In this document: positions 33,459-48,770 of the stretch, one piece after another
Layout of the letters: the number at the start of each line of letters is the position of its first letter
How positions within the stretch are numbered: the first letter of the stretch is position 1
From: Phytoactinopolyspora mesophila
GTDB lineage: Bacteria > Actinomycetota > Actinomycetes > Jiangellales > Jiangellaceae
Direction: 5' to 3'
Length of the DNA stretch: 64,000 nucleotides
Assembly (NCBI RefSeq): GCF_010122465.1
Contig: NZ_WLZY01000009.1
Location: 118,729 to 182,728, forward strand
Notes under the pieces: generated by a model
What the model was told of the DNA's origin: nothing
Seen by the model: the letters and a program-made list of their open reading frames with translations, nothing else
Database searches by the model: none
Made by a program: the position numbers and the translations under genes

Positions 33459-35711
33459 TCACACCGTGGTAGCACTCCGACGGCCACGGATGGCGAACGC
33501 AGCGCCACCGGCGGCCAGCAGGCCGACACCCACGAGGATGAACAGCATGCTGCTCGAACCGGTGTCGGGCAGCTCGTCGCCGTCCTCGTCATCGTCATCG
33601 TCATCACGGGTGACAACGGTGAAGTCGACGGAGGCCTGCGAGTCGGTCAGCTCCGGGTCGCCGTCTTCGGCCGTGGCGAAGGCGGTCAGCGTGTACTCGC
33701 CGTCCTCCAGCGCCTCGTCCGGGGCGAACGACCAGTTGCCGTCCTCGTCGATCTCGAACTCGCCTTCCCAGGTAACCAGGTCCTCGTCCTCGTCGGCCGT
33801 GGCCAACTCGTCCGAGGCGGCACCGAGAGCGGGCTCGGCGTCGTCAGCGGTGATGGTGCCCTCGATCTGCAGACCGACGAGCGCGCCCGGGAACGAAGTC
33901 CCCTCGAAGACGACGTCGCCAGCGACCTCGCCACCGTCCTCAGGCACCGTGATGGTGACCTCAGGCTGGGTGATGCCCAGGTCGGACACCGTGACGCTCT
34001 GGGCGTCGTCACCGGCCACCTGGGTCACGGTGGCGTCGAAACGTGCACCGCGGGGAAGGTCGGAGTCGGGGCTGATCTCCCAGCTGCCTTCGTCGTCGAT
34101 CGTGGCCGCACCGAACTCGTCGTCGCCGACGCTCAGCGTGACGTCCGCGCCGGGCTCGCCGGTGCCCTCGAACGGCGGGCGGGCGTTGCTGGTGGTCTGG
34201 CCGTCGGACGGAGAGTCGACAACCAGGTCCTCGACGTCCGGCTCCGGCTCGCCCTCTTCGATCGTGAAGGAACCGGGGGTGGCCGCGGACTGCGAGTGGT
34301 TGCCGTAGAACGCCTGCGCCGTGTAGTCGTACTCGGCGCCGACCTCGAGCTCCTCCTCGACCTCGATGACGAACTCGCCGTCACCGTCGATCTCGACCTC
34401 GAACTCGCCCAGGCCCTCGATGTTCACCGTGGCGCGGTGGTTGGCACCGGCGTTGGCGACCGAGCCGCGGATGGTGGCGCCGGTCTCGTCGCCGAAGGCC
34501 TCATCGATGACCGGAGCGTTCACCTCGACGTTGAGCTCCCAGTCGGACCCGAACAGGTCAAAGGCGTTGTGGGTGTCGCTGGAGACCGCGTAGCTGATGC
34601 TGAAGTCGCCGCCGCCCCACGTGTCGCAGGTCGTCCGGCCACCATGCGTGGACGCAGAGTTGACGCCAAGCGCGTAGTTTCCTACCACTGTGGAGCCACC
34701 GCTGTCGCCGCCGAGCATGCAGGCCTCGAAGACAAACCCTGCGACGTCAATGCCACCGACATCGATGACCTCGTCGGTAGCCAGGATTTCGCCGCAGGTC
34801 CAGCCCGAGCTGGCACCAGACTTGCATGCCTGAGCACCGACCACGGCGTCAATGGAATCGTGAATGGTCACGGCGCCATCGGCCGGGTTGCCGGTGCCGC
34901 CTCCCCACTCCGAGACCTCGGGAACATTGTCCCAGCCGGCCTCGGTGACATCGATGAGACCAGCATCGTGCGGCTGGTGTTCGCCATCGAATCGGGCCGG
35001 TGCGAGGTGCGTGCCGATCGGGTCACCGAAGTTCTCCGGCCCCAGCTCGCCGTCCAGGACCGGCTCGTCAATGTCGAGGTGGAAAACACCCACGAGTTGT
35101 TCGTCGGTCGTCGGGTGCAAGGCACAGTGCCCGGCGGTCAGGTAGCGGTCGGCCCCGCCGGCGTCATAGCCGGAGAAGGCGAACGAGCAGCGGCTGGCTG
35201 AATTGCCGTCCTCATCCGCGGACACGTAGCCGTACCCGCCTCGCAGGTCCTCGGCTAGCTCGAACTCGGCGTCCCTGAAGTCGTCGTTCGACTGTGGCTT
35301 GCCGACCTCGACCTTGGCTCCGATGGCCGCGACTGCCTCGACGTCGGCCTCGGCCGCGACGTAGATGGTCACGTCCTGGCCGTCGATGGCAACGCCTTCG
35401 ACACCCACGCCGGAGGCGCTGAGCGCCGCGGCCGCGTCAGCGGCTGCCTTGGCAGCCTCCGAGTTGGCCAGGTAGACCTCTGCGGAAATTCCGAGGTCGC
35501 GCTGGATGGCCTCGGTGAGGCCAGCCGGCAGCTCGGCTGCCTGTGCCGCGAAGTCCTCGGCGTTGAAGGTTTCTAATGCTGCTACAGGTGTGGATTCGTC
35601 TGCGTGCGCGATGCCGGTGAAGGCGATCGCGCCCGTACCGACGAGCGCGGAGGCAGCGAGCACGCTCGCGAACCTCCTGGCGCCGCGATAACGGCCGGTG
35701 GAGTTACTCAC
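33459..35711 (-). CDS. Sortase-anchored S1 serine protease with acidic Ig-like repeats
   Basis: A 750-residue cell-wall protein. The signal peptide is residues 1-37 (cut near AHA-DES). A streptogrisin/alpha-lytic-type propeptide spans about 50-150 (LPAGLTEAIQRDLGISAEVYL). The chymotrypsin-fold domain has His195 (LTAGHC), Asp249 (HDAGLIDV) and Ser337 (GGDSGGS). Several acidic bacterial Ig-like domains (about 390-700) end in an Asp/Glu run. The sorting signal is LPDTG at 714-718, a hydrophobic helix and an RGRR tail. GTG 35711 follows GGAG. It is one of three paralogues here. Substrate is unknown, probably surface or matrix proteins. Confidence 0.93.
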   Translation of the reverse strand: MSNSTGRYRGARRFASVLAASALVGTGAIAFTGIAHADESTPVAALETFNAEDFAAQAAELPAGLTEAIQRDLGISAEVYLANSEAAKAAADAAAALSASGVGVEGVAIDGQDVTIYVAAEADVEAVAAIGAKVEVGKPQSNDDFRDAEFELAEDLRGGYGYVSADEDGNSASRCSFAFSGYDAGGADRYLTAGHCALHPTTDEQLVGVFHLDIDEPVLDGELGPENFGDPIGTHLAPARFDGEHQPHDAGLIDVTEAGWDNVPEVSEWGGGTGNPADGAVTIHDSIDAVVGAQACKSGASSGWTCGEILATDEVIDVGGIDVAGFVFEACMLGGDSGGSTVVGNYALGVNSASTHGGRTTCDTWGGGDFSISYAVSSDTHNAFDLFGSDWELNVEVNAPVIDEAFGDETGATIRGSVANAGANHRATVNIEGLGEFEVEIDGDGEFVIEVEEELEVGAEYDYTAQAFYGNHSQSAATPGSFTIEEGEPEPDVEDLVVDSPSDGQTTSNARPPFEGTGEPGADVTLSVGDDEFGAATIDDEGSWEISPDSDLPRGARFDATVTQVAGDDAQSVTVSDLGITQPEVTITVPEDGGEVAGDVVFEGTSFPGALVGLQIEGTITADDAEPALGAASDELATADEDEDLVTWEGEFEIDEDGNWSFAPDEALEDGEYTLTAFATAEDGDPELTDSQASVDFTVVTRDDDDDDEDGDELPDTGSSSMLFILVGVGLLAAGGAAFAIRGRRSATTV

Positions 35712-36091
35712 GCATTTCTCCAGTTCTTAGTCATGAACATCATGTCCCGGATGCCCTCGCCGCCGAAACGACGCCCTACTGTCTCGTTGCCAGTAGACCG
35801 GGACCGGAGTTACCGTACCGGACTCTGCCTGTGGATAGCACCTGGGCCCTCTGATCGATTTAGGTAAACATTTGGTAACGAAGGCCGAAGAGAGGGAACC
35901 TTCAGGCCTTGGCCAGGCAAATGATGCTGAAGTTGCTAAAATCCAACTTTGAGCGTTACGTACCGATATGTCCGGATTTGTTAACTTCCAGTAGGGTTCG
36001 ACCCCGCCGCGAATGTCATGCCGGTGGCCGGGAGGCAAGATCGTCATCCCAGTTACCAGGCGCGGCCGCCGGAGGAACATGATCGACGCGA
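35712..36091. other. Gene-free 380-bp regulatory region upstream of the anchored protease
   Basis: No coding potential was found on either strand. The stretch 35850-36000 is clearly more AT-rich than the surroundings, as expected for a promoter region. It includes a short inverted repeat AAGGCC/GGCCTT (35881-35920) and the direct repeat described at 35863. The remaining 140 bp next to the protease start would be a long 5' leader. No riboswitch consensus was recognised. Confidence 0.5.
35863..35879. promoter_or_regulatory. Candidate MtrA-type direct repeat
   Basis: GGTAAA and GGTAAC are separated by five bases (CATTT). This matches the general GTnAC direct-repeat pattern known for the actinobacterial response regulator MtrA, which controls cell-wall enzymes and surface proteins. 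It lies about 150 bp upstream of the anchored protease. The assignment rests on one imperfect site. Confidence 0.3.
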
Positions 36092-37684
36092 CTACCGGGC
36101 AAGTCTCCGGCACATCACCGCCACTTCGTCCAGGCCCGCACCGTCGTGGCCCCCAAGACCCGCCGAGCCACTCGTGGCGCAGGCTCCCGGGACGACTGGA
36201 TGATCTTCCCGATCGCCGTCCTGCGACCCGGTCACGGACACCGAGCCTGACGCCGGCTCCGACACCGAGTGCCGGCCGTAATGGGCCCGGACCGTGACGG
36301 GATGCGTGGTCCCAGCCGGGAGGTCGTGGTGGACCCGAACCGAGAACCGTCCACCCGCGGTGACGGCGCCCATGTGGGTGCGCCCGTAGACGGCCACGCT
36401 CACCCAATGATTCGGGCCGGCGCGATCCACCACACCCGACACAACCAGGGGCTCGCCTGCTTCCACCTCCAACGGCAGCGAGACGGCCGGCTCGCTCACC
36501 GCTACCGCGAGCTCCCACTCGCCGTCCCGGTAGAAGCTCTCGGCGCTGTGCGCGCCGCCCGCCAAAGCGTAGGCAAAGCTGAAGTTCGTGTCCGGATCCC
36601 AGTGATCACACAGGCCGGAGGCGGGCCCGGCCGCACCGCTCAGAATCCCTACCGCCGCCGTGCCCGAGACATACGGCCCGCCGCTGTCGCCCGGCGAACT
36701 GCAGGCCGACGTGGTGAAACCGGTGACCGCCGCGTGGCCGTGAGCTTCGCCGTAGTCGACCAGGTGGTCGACGGCGGTGACCTCTCCACACTGGTAGCCG
36801 CTGGTCACGCCCGACCGGCAGACCGGCTGACCCACTACCGGGCTGACGTGATCGGTGAGAGTGACCTCCCCACGTCGAGGATCCCCGCTACCGCCGCCCC
36901 ACGTGGTGATGACCGGAACCGGCGTCCATGCCGCATCGTCGACGTTGAGCAGACCAACGTCGTGACCATTCCCGAACAGCCAGGCGCCGCCCACCCCGCG
37001 GCCCAGTGGTGCGCCAGGCGACGGCCATCCCGGAGTATCCGCCGTCCAGGGCTCGTCGATGTCGACGTGTGCCCATCGGGTGTCTTCGCCGGCCCGGGGA
37101 AAGCAGTGTCCCGCACTGAGTGCGACGGCCGAGCCGTCGGCGCCGTGACCGTTGAAACCCGCCGTGCAGTAGCTATGGAGTCCACCCGCGCCGTCAGGCT
37201 CACCGTAGCCGTAGCCCCCCTTGAAGCGCTCCTCATGCGGGATCACGGCCGCATCCAGGTCAGGTTCCGGCGGTGCGGCGGGCAGGACAACCGCGCCGGC
37301 GGCCTCGATCGCGGGATAATCGCCGGGGTCTGCTGAGAAGATCTCGAGGGTCTGAGTGGCACGATCGAACACCGCCGCCCCGACGTCCGCACCTCCGGCT
37401 CGCAGGGCATCGACGACGTGCGCCGCGGATTGACCAGCGGCAGCATCGGCGAGGTAGCGCTCCGCGGGCACCCCTAGGTCGCGTTCAACCGCGATCCGCA
37501 GCCCAGCCGGCAGCTCTAACGCTTCAGCACGAAACTCGGACGGCTCGTATGTCTGGAGGCCGAGCCCGATGTCAAGCAGCGCGTCCTCAGCGGTGGCCGG
37601 AGCGATCCCGCCGAACAAACCCGCCGAAACCAGACATGATGCGACGAGCGCGGCCGGCATCCGCCGGACCGCCGCACGCGCCAC
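36092..37684 (-). CDS. Secreted S1 serine protease without sorting signal
   Basis: A 530-residue paralogue of its two neighbours. The signal peptide ends near ATA-EDA (residue 32). The propeptide has LPAGLRIAVERDLGVPAERYL, and the catalytic domain has His193 (LSAGHC), Asp242 (GHDVGLLNV) and Ser334 (SPGDSGGP), with one bacterial Ig-like domain after it. The C-terminus is polar (SVTGSQDGDREDHPVV, then about 30 residues) with no LPXTG motif and no hydrophobic helix, so it should be released. No sorting signal was found in the other frames downstream. It starts with GTG three bases after the stop of the next protease gene and is probably co-transcribed. Confidence 0.9.
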   Translation of the reverse strand: MARAAVRRMPAALVASCLVSAGLFGGIAPATAEDALLDIGLGLQTYEPSEFRAEALELPAGLRIAVERDLGVPAERYLADAAAGQSAAHVVDALRAGGADVGAAVFDRATQTLEIFSADPGDYPAIEAAGAVVLPAAPPEPDLDAAVIPHEERFKGGYGYGEPDGAGGLHSYCTAGFNGHGADGSAVALSAGHCFPRAGEDTRWAHVDIDEPWTADTPGWPSPGAPLGRGVGGAWLFGNGHDVGLLNVDDAAWTPVPVITTWGGGSGDPRRGEVTLTDHVSPVVGQPVCRSGVTSGYQCGEVTAVDHLVDYGEAHGHAAVTGFTTSACSSPGDSGGPYVSGTAAVGILSGAAGPASGLCDHWDPDTNFSFAYALAGGAHSAESFYRDGEWELAVAVSEPAVSLPLEVEAGEPLVVSGVVDRAGPNHWVSVAVYGRTHMGAVTAGGRFSVRVHHDLPAGTTHPVTVRAHYGRHSVSEPASGSVSVTGSQDGDREDHPVVPGACATSGSAGLGGHDGAGLDEVAVMCRRLAR

Positions 37685-37687
37685 GGC

Positions 37688-40045
37688 TCAGCGCCACCTG
37701 AGCCCACGGAGCCGGAAGGCGACGATGCCCACGGTTCCGAGTCCGAGAAGGACGATTCCCACCATGACGGGCACGAAGACCCGGCTGCCGGTCTCGGCCA
37801 GGTCGTCGTCCAGCTCACCGGTGCGGGCATGACCGTCCGGCGGGCTGGTGACGTGGAGCTGGACTGTGGCCGAGCGCTCCGACGTGAGGTCGTCGACCGC
37901 TTGCACCGCATTGACCGAGTACTGACCAGGAGCGAGGTCATTCAGCTCGACTTCCCAGCGGCCCTCGCCGTCGGCCACAGTCACGTGCTCGCCGACGTTC
38001 GGCTCGTCCTCTATCGTGTCGGCGCTCTCCTCGCGCAGAATCCGCACCGCGACGGTGCTGTCCGGCAACGCCGACCCGGCAATCGCGTAATCGGCTTCCA
38101 CGCCGCCCTCAGGAGCGGCCACCAGAGGTGCTCCCGGCACGATGCCGATGTTCTCGAGCACCACCTCGTCCTCGCCGCTACGGGTCTCCTGGGTGACCGT
38201 GGCTTCAAAGCGCCCGGCCCGCTCGGCCCCGCTGGGCGAGACCGTCCATGTGCCGTCGTCATCGACGACAGCCGAGGTGGTCGAATCGTCGAACTCAAGC
38301 GTGATTCGAGCCCCCGGATCACCCGTGCCGAAGAACCGGGGCTCGGTCGCGTTCGTGGTGTCTCCCTCGGCCGGCGTGTGAACCACCAGGGAGGCGACCT
38401 CCGCGACCTCGAAGGTGCCCTCGACGGTCTCGGACTCCGTCTCGCGAGTGGACGGTGAGGGCGTGTGCTGGGCCCTCACGGTGTAGTTGTGCCGGCCGGG
38501 TGGCAGCGCGTCCTCGATCGGCACTCGCCAGCTGCCGTCGGCTCTGACCACGGCCTCAACGGGTTCATGCCCGCCGACGGTAACGACGACGGTGGACCCA
38601 GCTGCTGCGTCGATGTTGCCCCGGAACGTGGGCTTCTTTCCGGTGACGTCGCCCTCGACAGGTGCGGTCACGGCTGGAGCACCCACGTGGACGGAGAGGT
38701 TCCAGTCATCGCCATACAATGACGCGACGTTCGTATCACCACCGGACAATCGATAGCCGATGGCCACCTGGGGGCTTTGACCGGCGTCGCCGCAGTCGGT
38801 TCCGGTCAGGGTAGAACCTGCGCTGACACCGAGTGCGTAATGGCCGACGACGACGGCCCCTCCCGAGTCACCGGAGACAGTGCAGGCGTCGAACATGAAC
38901 CCGGTGACATCGTCGCCGCCGACCTTGACAGTGCTCTCAGCCGCGACCACATTGCCGCACGTCCATCCCGATGTGATGCCGCTTTTGCAGGCAGGCGCCC
39001 CCGAGATCGGCGCCATCGAGTCGTAGATGGACAGCCCCGCGCTCTGCTCCGGGTCACCGCCGCCAGCAGCGACCTCGGGCCTCAGCCGAGCCTCACCGTT
39101 TATCTCCACCAACGCGGCGGAGTCTCCGCCTCCGACAGTGAGACCGCCCACGAGCAGTTCTCCCGGCTCGTTCTCCTCGTCCTCGGGGTCTTCAGTGCCA
39201 AGAAGACCGTTGGTCAGATCATCGAGCAGCGAGCCATTGCCGTCATCGGCATGGGTATCGCCTTCGGTCTCGTGACCGGTCTCGTCGGTGGTGCCGTCTT
39301 GCAGCGACAGATCCAGCAGATTGATCGGTCCGTCCAACGGCTCCGAATCGGACACCAAGCAATGACCCGCGGTCAGCGACAAGGGCTGCCCGGCAGACGA
39401 CGTGCCGCTGAAAGCCGCCGTGCAGCGGTAATAAGTGTCGGACTCCTCGATGACATATCCGAAGCCACCGCTGAGGGTCTGCGTACTGGAGTTGGCTTCC
39501 GGTGGCGCATCGCCGGATCGGGCCGGTCCGCCCACGAAGTCGGCCTCGATCGGAATGACCTTGTCATTCTGGCGGTCGGCGAAGGCGACCCTGCCTTGGG
39601 ATCGAGCAGCCCGGACGGCATCGAACAGCGCGTCGCCCACGTGCACCTTGGCGCCGGTAGCGGCGACAGCCGCCTGTTCAGAGCGGTTGCCCACGCTGAC
39701 GTGCAGCCTCTGCCCATCGAGCCAGGCCGACTTCACGACGTCTCCCAATGATGCGATGACGTCGTCCGCGGTCTTCGCGGCGGCAGCGTCGGCCAGGTAC
39801 CGCTCGGCCGACATGTCGAGGTCACGTTCGATCGCCTCGACCAGGTCGGACGGGAGCTCGGCCGCCTGAGCGGTGAAGTCACGCGGTTCGAACTCGCGCA
39901 TGACGACGTCGGGGACGGGTTGATCGCCCTCCGATGACTCGTCGTTCAACGCGTCCGCTGCCGTGGCGCCTACCGCCATGATGCAGACGAGCGACGACGC
40001 GAGTGCGGCGAACGTGAGACGCTGCCCGATCACTCGAGCACTCAT
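37688..40045 (-). CDS. Sortase-anchored S1-like protease with acidic insert
   Basis: A 785-residue surface protein. Signal peptide residues 1-31; propeptide LPSDLVEAIERDLDMSAERYL near 64-84; catalytic region with His228 (LTAGHC), probable Asp308 (GGGDSAALVEI) and Ser394 (VSGDSGGAVV). Between His and Asp there is an unusual acidic insert of about 50 residues (250-300, rich in D, E, G). The usual HDAGLI-type motif is changed to GDSAALV, so activity should be confirmed. Ig-like domains follow, then the sorting signal LAETG at 749-753, a membrane helix and a basic tail. ATG 40045 follows GGAG. It is first in an operon with the unanchored paralogue. Confidence 0.9.
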   Translation of the reverse strand: MSARVIGQRLTFAALASSLVCIMAVGATAADALNDESSEGDQPVPDVVMREFEPRDFTAQAAELPSDLVEAIERDLDMSAERYLADAAAAKTADDVIASLGDVVKSAWLDGQRLHVSVGNRSEQAAVAATGAKVHVGDALFDAVRAARSQGRVAFADRQNDKVIPIEADFVGGPARSGDAPPEANSSTQTLSGGFGYVIEESDTYYRCTAAFSGTSSAGQPLSLTAGHCLVSDSEPLDGPINLLDLSLQDGTTDETGHETEGDTHADDGNGSLLDDLTNGLLGTEDPEDEENEPGELLVGGLTVGGGDSAALVEINGEARLRPEVAAGGGDPEQSAGLSIYDSMAPISGAPACKSGITSGWTCGNVVAAESTVKVGGDDVTGFMFDACTVSGDSGGAVVVGHYALGVSAGSTLTGTDCGDAGQSPQVAIGYRLSGGDTNVASLYGDDWNLSVHVGAPAVTAPVEGDVTGKKPTFRGNIDAAAGSTVVVTVGGHEPVEAVVRADGSWRVPIEDALPPGRHNYTVRAQHTPSPSTRETESETVEGTFEVAEVASLVVHTPAEGDTTNATEPRFFGTGDPGARITLEFDDSTTSAVVDDDGTWTVSPSGAERAGRFEATVTQETRSGEDEVVLENIGIVPGAPLVAAPEGGVEADYAIAGSALPDSTVAVRILREESADTIEDEPNVGEHVTVADGEGRWEVELNDLAPGQYSVNAVQAVDDLTSERSATVQLHVTSPPDGHARTGELDDDLAETGSRVFVPVMVGIVLLGLGTVGIVAFRLRGLRWR

Positions 40046-41046: not shown

Positions 41047-41733
41047 TTAACGCCTGCCACTGACATCGCTGCTGGCGATGTCGTCGCCGAGGACGTCGAC
41101 ACGCTCGGCCCAGACATCGAGCAAAGCGTCGTCGTGACTGACCGCGAGTACCCCCATGTCGCGCTCGGCCACCTCGTCGTTGACGACGCGGACCAGGGCG
41201 GCCGTCGTCGAGGCGTCGAGCATGGACGTCATCTCGTCGCATACCAGGTATCGCGGCTGTAGCGCCAGCGCACGGGCCAGGCACGCACGCTGCAACTGCC
41301 CGTCGCTCACCTCGTGCGGCTTCCGGCTCATCAGGTCCGCGGTCAGATCTACCCGCGCGGCCAACGTCTCCACCCGATCCCGGACCTCGCGGGAAGAACG
41401 ATGACTGGCACGAAGCGGCTCGGCCATGACTTCGGCCAGAGTGAACCGCGGATCGACAGAACGCCGTGGCGACTGGAAGACGACCCCGACGGCGGTGCGG
41501 AGCCGGCGCGGCGCCCGGTGCCTGGTTCGGTGCACCCGCTCCCCATCCACCATGACCTCGCCGGACCACGGCGCGAGCAACAACGCCACCACCCGCGCCA
41601 ATGTCGACTTCCCACAGCCGCTCGGTCCGGCCAGGCCGATGACCCGGCCCGGATCGACCGACAGGGTGACGCCGTCCAGCACCGGGCTGCCTCTCCGGTA
41701 CCCGACGGTGATGTCCGTTGCCGTCAGCGACAT
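41047..41733 (-). CDS. Peptide/nickel-type ABC importer ATPase (DppF-like)
   Basis: A 228-residue ATP-binding subunit. Walker A GPSGCGKST; Q-loop VFQSPRRSVDPRFTL, whose DP-R-T segment is typical of Opp/Dpp/Nik ATPases; signature VSDGQLQRACLARAL (S-D-G instead of S-G-G); Walker B YLVCDEMTSMLD, where Met replaces the usual Pro after DE; and His in VSHDD. It lacks the long C-terminal oligopeptide extension. The start overlaps the previous ATPase gene by 10 bp. It is the last gene of the importer operon. Confidence 0.9.
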   Translation of the reverse strand: MSLTATDITVGYRRGSPVLDGVTLSVDPGRVIGLAGPSGCGKSTLARVVALLLAPWSGEVMVDGERVHRTRHRAPRRLRTAVGVVFQSPRRSVDPRFTLAEVMAEPLRASHRSSREVRDRVETLAARVDLTADLMSRKPHEVSDGQLQRACLARALALQPRYLVCDEMTSMLDASTTAALVRVVNDEVAERDMGVLAVSHDDALLDVWAERVDVLGDDIASSDVSGRR

Positions 41734-42743
41734 GCCACCGCCCGTTCTCCATACCAACTCAGTCCCACGTCCCCTGAGCACTCTCCCGGACAACGGCGAT
41801 GAAAAGCGCAACCGGGCGGGAGATCGGTCAAAGACGGTGGCCGGCCTGGAATGGGCACGAGCCCGCCCGCTGGCAACGCCCTCATCAGACCCCGGGTGTA
41901 GTCGTGCCACGGATCGGACACCAGATCGACCGCCGGGCCCAGCTCGAGCAACCGGCCCGCGTACATCACCGCGAGATCATCCGCGACGCGCTCGGCGGCA
42001 GCGAGGTCGTGGGTGATCAGCAGGACCGTGCGGCCGTCGTCGGCCAAGGAACGCAACAGATCCACCGTCCGGTCGACGAGCACGCGGTCCAAACCCGCGG
42101 TCGGTTCGTCAGCCAGGATGACGGGAGGGTCACCGGCCAGGGCCAATGCCGTCGCCACCCGCTGAGCCATCCCTCCGGACAACTCATGCGGGTACAGATC
42201 CAGATCGGCAGGGTCCAGCCCCACCTGCTCGGCAAGCTGTTCGACGCGGCCCGCCTCGCGGCCCTGAAGAAGCCGCACCACCTCCGTGAGCTGGGACCGC
42301 GCCGTGCGCACCGGTGTCAAGTGAGAGGCCGCGGACTGCGGGATCAACCCGATCCGCCGTCCGCGAACGCGGGTGGCCAACTCGTGCTCGCTCGCTCGCA
42401 GCAGATCGGCCGGTCCGTCCTCGCTGGTCAGCATCACCGAGCCGCGTACCTGCGCGTTGCCCGGCAACAGTCCGAGAATCGCCGCGGCCAGCACGGACTT
42501 GCCGCATCCGCTCTCTCCGACCAGAGCGAGGATCCGGCCGCGCCGCAGCGCGAACGACACCTCGTTCACCGCCCGGACCGTGCTGCCGCTGGCCAACCGG
42601 ATGCGTACGGACAGCGCCTCGACCGTCAGAACACCCCCACTCCCCTGTTGATCATGGGCACATGCCACCTTTTGGGGCCCGAGAATGGGAGCCTGCCCAT
42701 GATCAACAGGCGTGGAGGCGTCACCGCGGGGAGCGGGGGTCAT
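41724..42743 (-). CDS. Peptide/nickel-type ABC importer ATPase (DppD-like)
   Basis: A 339-residue ATP-binding subunit. Walker A is GESGCGKS, signature LSGGMAQRVATALAL, Walker B VILADEPTAGLD, and the C-terminal oligopeptide/dipeptide extension has CAFHRRCP. ATG 42743 overlaps the permease stop (ATGA) and has GAGGAAGGG before it, so the N-terminal extension of about 37 residues is probably translated. Residues 12-34 of that extension are encoded by a palindromic repeat (42644-42710), an in-frame addition not seen in the family. The ABC domain proper begins near VLTVEALSVRI. Confidence 0.92.
   Translation of the reverse strand: MTPAPRGDASTPVDHGQAPILGPQKVACAHDQQGSGGVLTVEALSVRIRLASGSTVRAVNEVSFALRRGRILALVGESGCGKSVLAAAILGLLPGNAQVRGSVMLTSEDGPADLLRASEHELATRVRGRRIGLIPQSAASHLTPVRTARSQLTEVVRLLQGREAGRVEQLAEQVGLDPADLDLYPHELSGGMAQRVATALALAGDPPVILADEPTAGLDRVLVDRTVDLLRSLADDGRTVLLITHDLAAAERVADDLAVMYAGRLLELGPAVDLVSDPWHDYTRGLMRALPAGGLVPIPGRPPSLTDLPPGCAFHRRCPGECSGDVGLSWYGERAVACR
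42644..42710. repeat. Palindromic element inside an ABC ATPase coding region
   Basis: Perfect 17-bp inverted repeat CCTGTTGATCATGGGCA / TGCCCATGATCAACAGG (42644-42660 and 42694-42710) with a 33-bp centre. It is read through in frame as part of the N-terminus of the DppD-like ATPase. The arms carry the same TGATCAT core as the palindromes at 13534 and 50296. Confidence 0.85.
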
Positions 42744-43690
42744 GTCAGCCCTTCCTCGCTCTGCCGCCTCGGCAGCGTGTGGTCTCGCCATGCGGCGCCG
42801 CACGCCGCGACGGCGAGCGTGGCGGCCACGAGCATCAGCGACGGAAAGACCAGCGTCCACCACGAACCGAGCAACAACGACTCGCGCGCCTCATCCAGCA
42901 ACGTGCCGAGGCTGGCGCGATGCGGCGGCAAGCCCAGGCCGAGGAAGCTCAGCGCCGACTCATGCCAGACCGCATGCGGGAGCAACAGTACGGCTGCCAG
43001 GACGGCCTGCGGGACCACCGCGGGCAGGTAGTGCCGCCGGATCACCCACCGGCGCGAAGCCCCGCCGGAGATGGCCGCGTCGACGAACTCGCGCTGCCGC
43101 AACGACAGGATCTCCGACCGGATCAGCCGTGCTACCGGCGCCCAGTGAGTCAACGCGATCGAGGCGACGATCGCCACGACGCTCCCGCGGTACAGCGCGA
43201 CGATCACGATGCCGAGCAACAGGTGCGGCACCGCGTTCACGGTGTCGACCAAACGCATCACGATCCGGTCCACCCAACCGCCCGCCGCGCCGGCGAGCGC
43301 CCCGACCGCCACCCCGAGCACCGTCGAGATAACCGCGCACAAGCCCGCGATCAGCAACGATATTCGCAGGCCGGCAGCGGTGCGGACAAAGAGATCCCGG
43401 CCGGCCTGGTCGGTGCCGAACAGGTGGTCGGTGGAGGGCGCGGAGCCGGCCGCTGCCAGGTCGATGACCCGTTCGTCGAGCCCAGCGAGCATCGGCACCA
43501 GGACGGCATACGCGACCAGCGTCACCAGCACACCGATGCCGAAGAACAGACGCTGCCGAGCCGTCAGCCTTGTGCGGCGGCGCCCTGGCCGGGCCCGAGT
43601 CCAGAGCCGGCCGGCATCGATCCACACCCCTGGTGGCGACGCCGATCCAACCGGGTCTCGGGTGGGCTTGCGGGTGCCTGTGTCAGCCAT
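42740..43690 (-). CDS. Peptide/nickel-type ABC importer permease (DppC-like)
   Basis: A 316-residue inner-membrane permease. An N-terminal helix and the OppC N-region (HLFGTDQAGRDLF) are typical of DppC/NikC proteins, followed by about five further helices and the EAA loop RQREFVDAAISGGASRRWVIRRHYLP that docks on the ATPase. The start ATG 43690 overlaps the previous permease gene by 8 bp. Confidence 0.93.
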   Translation of the reverse strand: MADTGTRKPTRDPVGSASPPGVWIDAGRLWTRARPGRRRTRLTARQRLFFGIGVLVTLVAYAVLVPMLAGLDERVIDLAAAGSAPSTDHLFGTDQAGRDLFVRTAAGLRISLLIAGLCAVISTVLGVAVGALAGAAGGWVDRIVMRLVDTVNAVPHLLLGIVIVALYRGSVVAIVASIALTHWAPVARLIRSEILSLRQREFVDAAISGGASRRWVIRRHYLPAVVPQAVLAAVLLLPHAVWHESALSFLGLGLPPHRASLGTLLDEARESLLLGSWWTLVFPSLMLVAATLAVAACGAAWRDHTLPRRQSEEGLT

Positions 43691-44672
43691 CGGTGGCCAC
43701 CCTGGGGTCGAGCACCGCGTACAAGACATCAGCGATCAGCGAGCCGAGCAACACGACCACGGCGGCCAGCAGCGTCAACGCTGCCAGCAAGGGGAAGTCC
43801 ACCTGCATCGCCGAGCGGACCACGGCCTCGGCCACACCGGGCCAGGAGAACACCGCCTCCACCAGGATGGCGCCGGTCACCAGTTCGGGCAGCCGGGCGC
43901 CCACCAGCGTCACGAACGGCAGCAAGGCCGTCGGCAGGGCATGGCGGAGCACCACGGTACGGGCCGGAAGGCCACGTGAACGAGCCCCCGTGACATGGTC
44001 GGAGCCAAATGCCCCGATCAGCGACTGCCGGACGTGTAGCAGCAGCCACGGCAGCTGGGCGATTGCCAGCACACCAGCCGGCAGGACGAGGTGTCGTGCG
44101 ACCTGCCCAACACTGAGCGCTGCCCCGGCGTCGGTCAGCCCAGCGACCGGAAGCCACGACAGTCCCAGGGCGAAGATCCCGATGGCGGCCAGCGCGACGA
44201 CGAACGGCGGCACCCCTTCCAACGCATGGGCCACGGTGGTCGCGACGCGATCGGTGAACCCGCCCTGGCGCCACGCCGTCCACACGCCCAGCACCAGAGC
44301 GACGGCGACGGCCAGTAGCATCGCCGTTCCGGCCAGCAGGACCGTCCAAGGCAGCCGTTCCAAGAGAACGTCGGCCACCGGCTGCCCGTACACCCGGGAC
44401 GTTCCGAGATCGCCGGTCAGCACGCTGCCCGCCCAACGCACATACTGCGCATACCAGGGATCGTCGAGCCCCAGGGTCTCCCGGAGCTGTTCCTGTTCCG
44501 CCGCCCCGGCCGTCAGGTACCGATCCCCCAGGTAGCCAGCGAGTGGATCGAACGGCGACGCCGCCGCCAGCCCGAAGACCACCACCGACGTCAGCACCAG
44601 GACCGGCACGATCATGGCCAGCCGGCGTAGCGCCATGCGGCCGATTTCCCGGCGCCGATCCGTACGTGTCAC
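43683..44672 (-). CDS. Peptide/nickel-type ABC importer permease (DppB-like)
   Basis: A 329-residue permease with six predicted helices. DppB/NikB features are the N-terminal helix LRRLAMIVPVLVLTSVVVFGL, the periplasmic stretch LGLDDPWYAQYVRWAGSVLTGDLGTS, and the coupling loop GSDHVTGARSRGLPARTVVLRHALP. GTG start at 44672. It pairs with the DppC-like permease and is 42 bp downstream of the binding-protein gene. Confidence 0.93.
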   Translation of the reverse strand: MTRTDRRREIGRMALRRLAMIVPVLVLTSVVVFGLAAASPFDPLAGYLGDRYLTAGAAEQEQLRETLGLDDPWYAQYVRWAGSVLTGDLGTSRVYGQPVADVLLERLPWTVLLAGTAMLLAVAVALVLGVWTAWRQGGFTDRVATTVAHALEGVPPFVVALAAIGIFALGLSWLPVAGLTDAGAALSVGQVARHLVLPAGVLAIAQLPWLLLHVRQSLIGAFGSDHVTGARSRGLPARTVVLRHALPTALLPFVTLVGARLPELVTGAILVEAVFSWPGVAEAVVRSAMQVDFPLLAALTLLAAVVVLLGSLIADVLYAVLDPRVATDG

Positions 44673-44714
44673 CCGTCGCCTCGCCGTTCGCGCTCAACCG
44701 TCACGCGCGTCTCC

Positions 44715-46328
44715 TCACTCACTTCGCCGCCACTCGCGGATGTTCCACCACGGCCCCCACTCCACGCCGTGCGCATGGGGTTCGACGATCTGCGTGGTGC
44801 CGGTCCATCGGTCGTCGGCTTTCATGACATAGGTGTGGTCGAGGAAGGCGAGCATGACGTAGGGCGGGTCGTCGACCAGGCGCTGCTGGATCTCGTGATA
44901 CGCCTGTACCCGCTCTTCTTCGTCCAGGCTGCGCCGCCCCAGATCGAGAGCCGCGTCGACGTCGTCGTCCCGGAACGCGGTGGGGTTGAGAAACGGATTG
45001 GCGTCGTCGTAGTCAGCGAACTGGGAATGCAACGCGTTGTACACCTGGGGATCGGGGTCAAAGGGGAAGTCCCCACCGCCGAGCACCCCGGCGTCCTGCG
45101 GAGTGCGAGGACGGAACTCCGGGCGGTCCACGGCCTCCAAGGTCACCTCGATCCCGATAGCGCGCGCATCGGAGGCGAATGCCTGTCCGAGGTCACGCCG
45201 GACCGTCTCCTCGGGGAAGTACATCACCGTGAACTCCGCCCGTTGGCCGTCCTTGACCCGGATGCCGTCGTCGGCCTCGTCCCATCCGGTGTCGTCGAGC
45301 AGCTGGCTCGCGGCCTCCGGATCATGCTGGAAGACGGCGGCGGGATTGTAGTACTGCCCGAACACCTCGGGAATGAGTGTGTGCGCGGGGACTCCGTGTC
45401 CGGCCAGCACCGTTTCGATCATCGCCTCGCGATCCACGGCGAGGTTGAGGGCCATGCGGATGTCCGGGTCGCCGGTGACCGGATGACCCGCGGGCATGGT
45501 GATGCCCCGCCAGTCGGCGCTCGGATTGGTGACCACTTCGGCGTCGTCAGCGTCGGCGAACGTAGCCGCGAGCTTGGGCGGCAACCATGCCCCGTCGAAC
45601 TCGCCCGAGCGCATGCGCTGGGCCCGCGTGTTGTCGTCCGTCGCGGAGGCAATCGTCAGCCGCGTCACGTCTGGCGCGCCGTCCCAGTATTCGTCGTTCG
45701 CTTCGAGCACCACCCGCTCGCCGCGCCGCCACTCGTCCAGCCGATACGGACCGGTGCCGATCGGCTCGGTGTTGAGCGGCGATTCCTCGACCGGTGCCGG
45801 GTCGGCCACAGCGGCAGCGGGGACGATTCCGAGCAGCAGCCGGGTGTCGAACGGTGCGTATGAATACTCTAGGTGGAACCGGACCGTGTGGTTGTCCACC
45901 TTCTCAACCCGATCGAGCATGCCGTACGCCGACGCGAGAGGGGAGGCGAAGGCCGGGTCGATGATGGCCTCGAATGTGGCCACGACGTCGTCGGCGCTGA
46001 ATTCAGAGCCGTCGTGGAATGTGACGTCGTCGCGCAATTCGAGCGTCCACTCGGTGGCGTCGGCGTTCACCTCCGGCCGACCGGTGGCCAGCGCAGGCTC
46101 CAGCTCGGGCGTTGCCTGTTCACCGGCAGCCAGCCGGAGCAGCCCGTCATAGATCTTCGACGAACCGTCCTCGCCGTGACCGGCGACCGGATTGAAGTTC
46201 TCCGGTTCGTACGAGTCGGCCAGCACGATGTGGTGGTCTTGTGCCTCGGCGCCGTCCTCGGCGGGCTCCCCACACGCCGCCAAGACCACGAGCGCAACGG
46301 GCATCACAGCTGTTACTCGAAGCTTCAC
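44715..46328 (-). CDS. Substrate-binding lipoprotein of the peptide/nickel-type importer
   Basis: A solute-binding protein of family 5 (537 residues from GTG 46328), tethered by the lipobox VVLAAC near residue 18. The fold is recognisable from SYEPENFNPVAGHG, TFHDGSEFSADDVVATFEAI, EPIGTGPYRLDEWRRGERV and ALNLAVDREAMIETVLAGHG. The C-terminus ends EPHAHGVEWGPWWNIREW, histidine-containing and common among metal-type members of the family. With the SmtB-like repressor next door this suggests transport of nickel or another metal (perhaps chelated), not peptides. A TTG at 46340 is an alternative start. Confidence 0.9.
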   Translation of the reverse strand: MKLRVTAVMPVALVVLAACGEPAEDGAEAQDHHIVLADSYEPENFNPVAGHGEDGSSKIYDGLLRLAAGEQATPELEPALATGRPEVNADATEWTLELRDDVTFHDGSEFSADDVVATFEAIIDPAFASPLASAYGMLDRVEKVDNHTVRFHLEYSYAPFDTRLLLGIVPAAAVADPAPVEESPLNTEPIGTGPYRLDEWRRGERVVLEANDEYWDGAPDVTRLTIASATDDNTRAQRMRSGEFDGAWLPPKLAATFADADDAEVVTNPSADWRGITMPAGHPVTGDPDIRMALNLAVDREAMIETVLAGHGVPAHTLIPEVFGQYYNPAAVFQHDPEAASQLLDDTGWDEADDGIRVKDGQRAEFTVMYFPEETVRRDLGQAFASDARAIGIEVTLEAVDRPEFRPRTPQDAGVLGGGDFPFDPDPQVYNALHSQFADYDDANPFLNPTAFRDDDVDAALDLGRRSLDEEERVQAYHEIQQRLVDDPPYVMLAFLDHTYVMKADDRWTGTTQIVEPHAHGVEWGPWWNIREWRRSE

Positions 46329-46344
46329 GCTGAGCGACAATAGC

Positions 46345-46822: not shown

Positions 46823-47731
46823 CTACCGCAGGTACCGGGTCACGGCGTCGTGCCCGAAGTACTCGGCCCAGCCGAGCGGCGCGAGCCCGAACTTCGCGTC
46901 CGTGGCGGCGGTATCGGCACCATGCTCCACCAGGAAGCGCACCTCATCCACGGCGCCGGCACCGGCCGCGTAGTGCAGAGCCGTCGGCGATCCGGCGTTG
47001 ACGTCGAAGCCGTTTCGCACCAGAACCCGAACTACATCCCAGTGCCGCAACGCGGCCACTTCACAGACCAGCTCGGGACGGCTCACCCGCGTCTCGGCCG
47101 CATGGTCCTGGACTTCGCGGGCGCTCGCTTGCGCATCTCCGGCGAGACCGGCCGCCACCAGCGGATTCTTCCGAAGACCGTAGGCCCGATACAGATCGCG
47201 CAACAGGCAGATCTCCGCGCCGTGCGCCATGACTTCGCGGTTCACGTGCAGCACCAGCTGAGCCATCGAGAATTCGGCGAACTCCTCGCCCTTGGCGCCC
47301 AGTGGTGCGCGCAGTTCGCCGTCGCTCAGAGCGGCGACGCCGTCATGCCAGAGCGCGTACGTCTGCTCGAGGAAGGCCAGCGCGTCGTCCGCCGTATCCG
47401 CCAACGGCTCGGGCCAGTGCCGTAGGTCGTACATGCCGGCGTCGTCCGGTGCGGTGGTGGGACCGAAGAAGGCGCGCGCCCGCGTACCGAAGATGTCTCT
47501 GCCGACGTGGACGGTCCTCCAGGCGATAGTGGTCAGGGGCGGGATCGGTGGGTCGGGTGAGAGCTGTTCGAGCTCGTAGACGCCGTCGGGCCCCTTGCGA
47601 ACGCTCCAGCAACCGGGCACCGGCTCCCAGAAGTACTCGTCGTCGGTCAACCCGTCGAGGCGAGGACGCAGATGGGCGTGCCAGTAGAACTCGAGCTGTT
47701 CGAGCAATTCGGTACGCCATGTGTTCGTCAT
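46823..47731 (-). CDS. DinB-like protein fused to ankyrin repeats
   Basis: A 302-residue protein. Residues 1-190 are a DinB/YfiT-type four-helix bundle (WRTELLEQLEFYWHAHLRPRL, WSVRKGPDG, SMAQLVLHVNREVMAHGAEICLLRDLY), a fold that usually binds a metal through histidines and often acts as a thiol-dependent enzyme. Residues about 205-302 form three ankyrin repeats (HWDVVRVLVRNGFDVN, TALHYAAGAGAVDEVRFLVEHGAD, LGWAEYFGHDAVTRYL). The start ATG 47731 follows GAAGGA. It is divergent from a WYL regulator across a palindromic site. Confidence 0.85.
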   Translation of the reverse strand: MTNTWRTELLEQLEFYWHAHLRPRLDGLTDDEYFWEPVPGCWSVRKGPDGVYELEQLSPDPPIPPLTTIAWRTVHVGRDIFGTRARAFFGPTTAPDDAGMYDLRHWPEPLADTADDALAFLEQTYALWHDGVAALSDGELRAPLGAKGEEFAEFSMAQLVLHVNREVMAHGAEICLLRDLYRAYGLRKNPLVAAGLAGDAQASAREVQDHAAETRVSRPELVCEVAALRHWDVVRVLVRNGFDVNAGSPTALHYAAGAGAVDEVRFLVEHGADTAATDAKFGLAPLGWAEYFGHDAVTRYLR

Positions 47732-47749
47732 GTCCTTCACCGTAGAAGC

Positions 47750-47776
47750 CAAATAGGACACCCTGTGTCATATTTG
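47750..47776. promoter_or_regulatory. Operator between the DinB-ankyrin gene and the WYL regulator
   Basis: An 11-bp inverted repeat with one mismatch, CAAATAGGACA and TGTCATATTTG, around CCCTG. It occupies the centre of the 49-bp divergent gap and ends five bases before the WYL start, so it is the likely site of the WYL regulator, affecting both genes. Confidence 0.7.
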
Positions 47777-47780
47777 AGGA

Positions 47781-48770
47781 ATGCGTGCCGACCGGCTCGT
47801 CCAAATCGTCCTCCTGCTACAGACCCGCGGGCGGATGACCGCCGCTGAGCTGGCGCAGCGGCTCGACGTCTCCGCACGCACTATCCAGCGCGACCTCGAC
47901 GCGCTGAGCCTGGCCGGCATCCCGGTGTATGCCGACCGCGGCCGGGCCGGCGGGTGGTCACTCAGCGCCGACTACCGCACCCGGCTGAACGGGCTGAGCC
48001 CGGCGGAGTCCGCGGCGCTGTTCATCGGCACCACCGGGCACGTGCTCTCCGACCTGGGCCTATCCACCGCTTCGACCAGCGCGATCACCAAGCTGCTCTC
48101 TGCCGTACCGGCCAGCGCCCGGCGGGATGCGGACCTCGCCCGCGAGCGGATACTCGTCGACCACGCCGACTGGCAAGGCGCCGGCGAGGCCTCGACCTGG
48201 CTGCCAGTGCTGCAACAGGGTGTGTGGGAGGAGCGAAAGCTACGGCTGCACTACGGACGGGCGCGACGCGCCGTGACGATAGCGCCGCTGGGCCTGGTCG
48301 CCAAAAGGCGCTCGTGGTACCTCGTCGGCCTGCGTGACGACGGCGAGTTCCGCACCTACCGGGTGCAACGGATCAGCCAGGCGCTGCTGACCGACCAAAC
48401 CTTCGACCGCCCTGCTGGCTTCGATCTCGCGGGCCACTGGGAGAACACCAATCGGGAATACTTCGCCAGCCTGCGCGACTGCCCGGTGCGGCTACGAGTG
48501 CGTGGCGAGGTGGGGCACCGGCTTCGGTGGGCGCCGAACGCGGTGATCGACGACGCCACGGAGCGGCCGGATGGATGGTGGGACGTCGTTATGACGTTCG
48601 AGCGGATATACGAGGCCCGGGTCTACCTGCTCGGCCTGGCCGGCGACGTCGTCGTTCTCGAGCCGGCCGAGTTGCGCGCCGACATGCTTGACGCTGCTCG
48701 CGCGCTTCTGGAGGCCCACGATGCTGACCATCTGCCGGGCCGACCATCAGTTGCGGGATTTTTCCAATGA
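47781..48770 (+). CDS. YafY/WYL-domain transcriptional regulator
   Basis: A 329-residue protein with an N-terminal winged helix of the HTH_11/DeoR type (ADRLVQIVLLLQTRGRMTAAELAQRLDVSARTIQRDLDAL) and the WYL domain from about residue 140, with VAKRRSWYLVGLRDDGEFRTYRVQRI containing the W-Y-L motif. WYL regulators respond to ligands or nucleic acid. The ATG directly abuts GAGGA, so leaderless translation is possible. It is divergent from the DinB-ankyrin gene, its likely target. Confidence 0.93.
   Translation: MRADRLVQIVLLLQTRGRMTAAELAQRLDVSARTIQRDLDALSLAGIPVYADRGRAGGWSLSADYRTRLNGLSPAESAALFIGTTGHVLSDLGLSTASTSAITKLLSAVPASARRDADLARERILVDHADWQGAGEASTWLPVLQQGVWEERKLRLHYGRARRAVTIAPLGLVAKRRSWYLVGLRDDGEFRTYRVQRISQALLTDQTFDRPAGFDLAGHWENTNREYFASLRDCPVRLRVRGEVGHRLRWAPNAVIDDATERPDGWWDVVMTFERIYEARVYLLGLAGDVVVLEPAELRADMLDAARALLEAHDADHLPGRPSVAGFFQ

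Follow-up and report, generated by a model that had tools for sequence, protein, structure and literature searches.

A probable wall-anchored pseudoprotease encoded beside two proteases with intact catalytic triads in Phytoactinopolyspora mesophila

Within the window (the whole stretch of 64,000 nucleotides of DNA analysed here, from the soil actinobacterium Phytoactinopolyspora mesophila) lie three neighbouring genes, A, B and C, for relatives of alpha-lytic protease. The reading favoured here, and a fairly probable one, is that A and B encode active proteases, the first anchored and the second released, and that C encodes a wall-anchored pseudoprotease which is likely a binding partner at the cell surface. 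The cutting machinery of C is broken, not always in the same way, in every genome of its clade that was examined and the protein is kept, which argues that it probably binds some partner, or controls its active neighbour, and does not cut. In the open-licence literature (mostly best-ranked matches) no report on this cluster was found, nor any paper on Jiangellaceae together with serine protease.

The 6.5 Mb genome bearing the cluster belongs to the Jiangellaceae, and relatives of the genes are found in Phytoactinopolyspora and Jiangella. The original prediction of three paralogous protease genes at this place was confirmed: they are same-strand open reading frames with homologous pro-regions and S1 domains of the alpha-lytic/NAPase type (Table 1), each with a hydrophobic N-terminal leader as judged by eye. 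B starts 3 bases past the stop codon of C, and 380 bases separate B from A. Closest among the S1 relatives are NAPase, Thermobifida protease A and alpha-lytic protease. The alpha-lytic/NAPase/streptogrisin group, which we take to be MEROPS S1E, has in common with the cluster the fold (Z about 18 for C), the pro-region, six conserved cysteines and the layout of the Ser loop. Features of the cluster beyond those of the group are Ig-like repeats and the wall anchors of A and C. The triad is complete in A and B; in C it is incomplete, and the His–Asp loop of C is long and acidic. The proposed common architecture holds for leader, pro-region and S1 domain in all three and for Ig-like domains in A and C (Big_13 repeats), but B has a single weak Ig-like stretch, below cut-off. 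The motifs TAGHC (SAGHC), HDxGL and GDSGG are present in A and B which are, by sequence, ordinary proteases of alpha-lytic/streptogrisin type with intact triads. An AlphaFold2 model of C has the chymotrypsin double-barrel fold (mean pLDDT 67.8, pTM 0.72) and matches alpha-lytic protease and SGPB with Z of 17–18. That C is unmatched by Pfam Trypsin was considered as a sign of decay and dropped, because A is likewise unmatched.

Table 1. Features of the protease cluster and its surroundings (positions are those of the window)
Feature	Position	Strand	Remarks
Gene A	33459..35711	minus	750 aa; pro-region, S1 domain, Ig-like repeats, acidic linker, LPDTG
A LPDTG sorting motif	33558..33572	minus	sequence and Gram_pos_anchor profile
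A triad His195-Asp249-Ser337	within 33459..35711	minus	intact by sequence
Gene B	36092..37684	minus	530 aa; pro-region, S1 domain, weak Ig-like stretch, polar tail
B triad His193-Asp242-Ser334	within 36092..37684	minus	intact by sequence
Gene C	37688..40045	minus	785 aa; signal peptide, pro-region, S1 fold, Ig-like repeats, LAETG
C LAETG sorting motif	37787..37801	minus	sequence
C Ala409 (position 214)	38819..38821	minus	Ser in other 18 C proteins
C Ser394 (Ser195 position)	38864..38866	minus	Ser kept, codon TCG
C residue 309 (Asp102 position)	39119..39121	minus	Ser, TCC; Asp in other 18 C proteins
C His-to-Asp loop	39122..39358	minus	longer, acidic (29% Asp/Glu)
C His228 (His57 position)	39362..39364	minus	CAT; kept
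Peptide-type ABC importer	41047..46340	minus	SBP_bac_5 44715-46340; two permeases 42740-44672; two ATPases 41047-42863
Jiangella-group C proteins without LxxTG	L061, L063, L065, L069, L071, L075, L077, L081, L083		

The state of the triad was read from an alignment of 19 C proteins and from the codons in the DNA. Window C has Ser309 in the Asp column, so the altered Asp motif that had been remarked on is a true change; His228 and Ser394 are kept, and Ala409 occupies position 214. With its triad thus incomplete window C is a homologue and not a proven protease, and homology to proteases combined with loss of a catalytic residue fits a pseudoprotease. The Ser at the Asp102 position and the Ala at 214 suggest that it is probably without useful protease activity.

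Window C belongs to a clade (support 100/99) with the C proteins of four genomes of the same genus (G017, G018, G019 and G020) and one of another genus (G021). All six, here called the Phytoactinopolyspora group, are without at least one triad residue. The four congeneric relatives have Gly for the catalytic Ser and G021 has Met; His is additionally lost in G019, to Arg, and in G021, to Gln. (The named records for P. alkaliphila, P. limicola and P. endophytica also have Gly for Ser, but are probably the same as G017, G020 and G018 and so not independent.) Among the 13 sister C proteins the triad is intact in 12, the exception being a change of Ser to Gly in G007; the C record of J. anatolica, probably the same record, has it too. 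Inactivation of C takes a minimum of two changes on the tree. His, Asp and Ser are all kept in each of 38 A/B-type proteins. That the set has a non-catalytic member is the best-supported part of the original prediction. The prediction allowed that this member is perhaps a binder; C is probably non-catalytic, given the triad loss in all six, and binding would be a further step.

It could be held that window C is still, or is again, a working protease, with Ser394 and His228 sufficing or Asp308 substituting, and that its relatives alone are dead. This is unlikely. Its GDSGG and TAGHC motifs are intact and Asp308 sits just one residue ahead of the changed position. However, the alignments put Ser309 in the Asp column, and when the ungapped sequences are compared (GGGDSAALVEI in the window and GDGHDAALISV in a relative), the strand pattern following the site fits occupation of the Asp102 position by Ser309 and not by Asp308. 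Position 214 is changed as well, and every one of the five nearest C proteins is dead.

The retained Ser may itself have a history. Its codon is TCG in window C, and AGC in the 12 triad-intact C relatives. The minimum number of Ser changes on the whole tree is four, one of them in G007, and the remaining three, inside the clade, imply (as worked out by hand) a return of Ser in the window. Loss of Ser on the clade stem and its later return in the window might fit both codon and tree, though the codon evidence is weak because triad-intact A-type genes also switch Ser codon (A/B-type rows have AGC in 36 of 38 and TCC in two). The implied return could mean regained function; TCG rather than AGC is on the other hand as expected after loss and return, and since Ser may have returned, activity cannot be concluded from the intact GDSGG. 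In trypsin, removal of Asp102 lowers the rate by around four orders of magnitude. Some residual or rearranged catalysis may persist in window C because His228 and Ser394 are kept and Asp308 adjoins the changed site; according to one account, so-called pseudoenzymes can regain activity through catalytic residues that have migrated (PMC10211241).

His and the Asp site are separated by 80 residues in window C, 53 in A and 48 in B. The acidic insert earlier put at 50 residues does exist, with a net size of about 27. The loop is 76–89 residues long in the six dead C proteins. For the 12 live sister C proteins the range is 46–54, and the dead G007 protein has 24. Acidic residues make up 28–36% of it in the Phytoactinopolyspora group, where length and charge are shared and the sequence is not fully conserved. 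Confidence of the model is low in the loop of C, so it is probably disordered. Remodelling of the loop hints at an accompaniment to the loss of catalysis, a hint and not a test because there are only two events on the tree. A short motif of hydrophobic and acidic residues recurs in the loop of four of the six (LLDDLTNGLL, LLDDLTDGLL, LLPDDLPDL and LLPDDLLDL; the window, L053, L054 and L055). The loop of G021 is His-rich also, and might bind metal.

A further alternative is that C is merely decaying, a redundant protease under relaxed selection and a pseudogene in the making. The end branches in the six-member clade are long (0.38–0.80 for five of the six), the lesions differ among genomes, and the triad is not the sole site of relaxed constraint, since all six have replacements at two near-invariant positions, aligned at 249 and 328, and five have one at 209. 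Yet in all six the open reading frame is full length and still encodes leader, pro-region, Ig repeats and sorting signal, and the most conserved residues of the fold are mostly unchanged while the triad is hit. Counting was done on 57 rows (L085–L089, L022 and L021 left out). In the columns invariant in 50 triad-intact rows, a set without the G007 protein, the six C proteins have changes in 8 of 18 triad cells versus 7 of 216 other cells, or 7 of 144 within the mature domain. Fisher p is about 1e-6 for all cells and 2e-5 for the mature domain, values that overstate the case because the six proteins share history and the cells are not independent. In the 59 columns that are at least 96% conserved, the counts are 8 of 18 triad cells versus 27 of 336 others; 20 of these columns are in the pro-region, and there none of 120 cells is changed. 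The six cysteines, Gly392 of the oxyanion hole and Asp393 are kept in all six.

The dN/dS ratio points the same way. For whole C it is 0.28 and 0.32 in two pairs vs 0.29, 0.36 and 0.37 in matching A pairs, and by domain it is 0.22–0.41 in the two C pairs, the least constrained domain being the protease part of the G018/G019 pair at 0.41 (all rough values, by NG86 only and with dS near 1, close to saturation). Decay is accordingly held to be decidedly unlikely. Columns identical in all six C proteins number 89 and just four of these are rare elsewhere, so there is no evident new conserved binding site.

A, B and C are ancient paralogues, going by tree and identities, and their duplications predate the genus. 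A shares 63.5% and 64.7% identity with its counterparts in two relatives, vs 37–38% with B and C. B is 55% identical to its G021 orthologue overall, and 63% in the pro-region plus protease part, and the identity of C to the rest of its group, five proteins, is 49–55%. For each of the three genes, an orthologue in another genome is a nearer relative than either neighbour in the cluster. This is literally the outcome named beforehand as counting against the original prediction, but the genes are paralogues nonetheless; what falls is a recent local duplication, for which the higher identities to orthologues leave no support and which the tree also rejects. In the tree (58 of 64 rows, leaving out the five generic S1 loci L085–L089 and Hoyosella L022; two L053 open reading frame fragments had been dropped ahead of alignment) C proteins form one family-wide clade of 19 rows with support 100/100. 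B pairs with its G021 orthologue and, more distantly, with the B-like protease domain of two other genomes; A groups among other LPDTG proteases.

A search with a profile of the three genes found relatives in 20 of 22 family genomes, the two without being 75% and 81% complete. C is present in 19 of the 22, with the 20th (G014) lost off a contig end, and in each of the 18 genomes whose contig permits the check it adjoins an A/B-type gene (in G016 the contig stops just below C). Among 393 genomes of the class, matches to the C profile of more than 100 bits occur only in Jiangellaceae (20 of 22 genomes, of C or A/B type). Outside the family 21 of 371 genomes have weaker matches, the best at 77 bits and mostly to the protease core alone. 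In G012 and G016 the protein in the slot of A (L075:6614-8887 and L037:395-2590) has an A-like start of the pro-region and an LPDTG tail with a B-like protease domain, 43–45% identical to that of window B; their make-up suggests that paralogues have swapped domains or undergone gene conversion.

The C-terminal signals are as first claimed, with LPDTG in A, LAETG in C and no anchor in the middle gene, B. A ends in LPDTG and a membrane segment matched by the Gram_pos_anchor profile. This match and conservation in relatives identify the anchor, and not the DNA pattern, for which one match vs 0.24 expected could be chance if taken alone. A has the features of a sortase substrate (LxxTG, hydrophobic stretch, basic tail, and sortase in the genome). 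C ends in LAETG, a hydrophobic stretch and an Arg tail, recognized by eye and from the alignment of relatives; it was matched by none of the anchor models of Pfam and NCBIfam. A and C are thus probably held at the surface. A-type proteins keep LPDTG wherever their ends are readable (those of G018 are broken by runs of N) and all six C proteins of the Phytoactinopolyspora group keep LxxTG. In 9 of 11 Jiangella-group C proteins LxxTG is replaced by GLPGG or similar; the hydrophobic or membrane segment and Arg-rich tail remain, and so C there is probably membrane-held and not sortase-anchored. Two class E sortases score over cut-off in the window genome, and two class F-like ones fall short of it. 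The usual sortase motif is TLxTC. One class F-like homologue, L093:1255-1911 (C2:144340-144708 of its own genome), appears to have VITSGG at the usual motif site, so its catalytic Cys may be missing, and it is possibly a dead sortase.

The polar tail of B is without an LxxTG signal, and B is probably released from the cell. Its sole clear orthologue, that of G021, ends in LPDTG; release of B, with loss of linker and anchor, is on this comparison the derived state, in one genome. (A frameshifted anchor remnant below B was considered and rejected, as tblastn with the anchored G021 orthologue found none in the 380-base gap.) The suggested division of labour, with proteolysis partly fixed and partly released, therefore extends at most to A versus B in this genome, because the G021 orthologue of B is anchored.

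A peptide-type ABC importer adjoins the cluster. This and the intact triads of A and B are what would be expected if the three genes were simply a set of nutritional proteases, each of them active. For C that is very improbable, as it is without the catalytic Asp and its nearest orthologues are without the Ser. Among the five relatives in the Phytoactinopolyspora group, the importer, whole or in part, is near the cluster in three: G017, G020 (one ATPase only) and G021. The flanks of G018 and G019 have just distant ABC ATPase matches (32–36%), and in the flanks of the five other loci of the 10 examined the importer was not found. Further along in the window an open reading frame with DinB_2 and ankyrin repeats (46823-47761) adjoins a WYL/HTH regulator (47781-48770); in G018 and G019 (L053 and L054) this pair directly adjoins the protease cluster.

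The favoured reading, two active proteases with a wall-anchored pseudoprotease, can be put as a sequence of steps. The C paralogue would have been separate, and active, before the family diversified, and would have lost proteolysis on the stem of the Phytoactinopolyspora group or early within it. Selection would continue to act on the pro-region, the fold, the cysteines, the binding cleft and the anchor of C. With less support, the retained cleft and acidic loop may hold a peptide, an inhibitor or a neighbouring protease, and surface-held C may set where or when A (and B) act. Peptides liberated by the proteases could be taken up through the adjacent importer.

For binding by C there are precedents in UmbA, MamO and CspC, and the role is suggested by analogy with these. 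The trypsin domains of UmbA, of Streptomyces umbrella particles, have an incomplete triad and bind UmbB, with no catalytic activity detected (PMC11062931). UmbA is like C a secreted actinobacterial trypsin fold with an incomplete triad, but C differs in having a wall anchor, pro-region and Ig repeats and in lacking a lectin domain. A family profile search up to E 1 found no lectin family in C, and UmbA is absent among the fold and PDB sequence matches listed for the cluster, though such an absence does not tell against a relationship. MamO is a dead trypsin-like protein required for MamE-dependent proteolysis, both being from one gene island (PMC4794232). It resembles C in being encoded near an active protein. 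It is unlike C in being of HtrA type, at the magnetosome and with a di-histidine metal site. MamO is among the fold matches of C at Z about 13; the best matches are of alpha-lytic type. In Clostridioides difficile the pseudoproteases CspA and CspC stand beside active CspB, CspC keeping its pro-domain, with live forms in other families (PMC6636752). The Csp set, with one live and two dead paralogues, resembles the C cluster in these respects; it differs in having a subtilisin fold and in CspC being a spore protein.

A stronger proposal, possible but doubtful, is that C is a dedicated wall-anchored pseudoprotease, catalysis having been selected against with the gain of the long acidic loop, and that it works with A as surface receptor, decoy or activator. 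Lesions are not the same from species to species, yet cleft, pro-region and anchor persist. That would make C, by analogy, a surface counterpart of MamO/MamE and CspC/CspB.

On the favoured reading of A and B as active proteases and C as a pseudoprotease, this small family seems to preserve the full course of the change from protease to pseudoprotease, with an intact neighbouring paralogue as internal control. Its stages are the intact sister orthologues, the differing lesions in the Phytoactinopolyspora group and one further loss in J. anatolica. With such a series of live and dead proteins, the order of loop extension, triad loss and possible Ser return becomes testable, and pairs of live and dead orthologues are available for asking what a surface pseudoprotease does.
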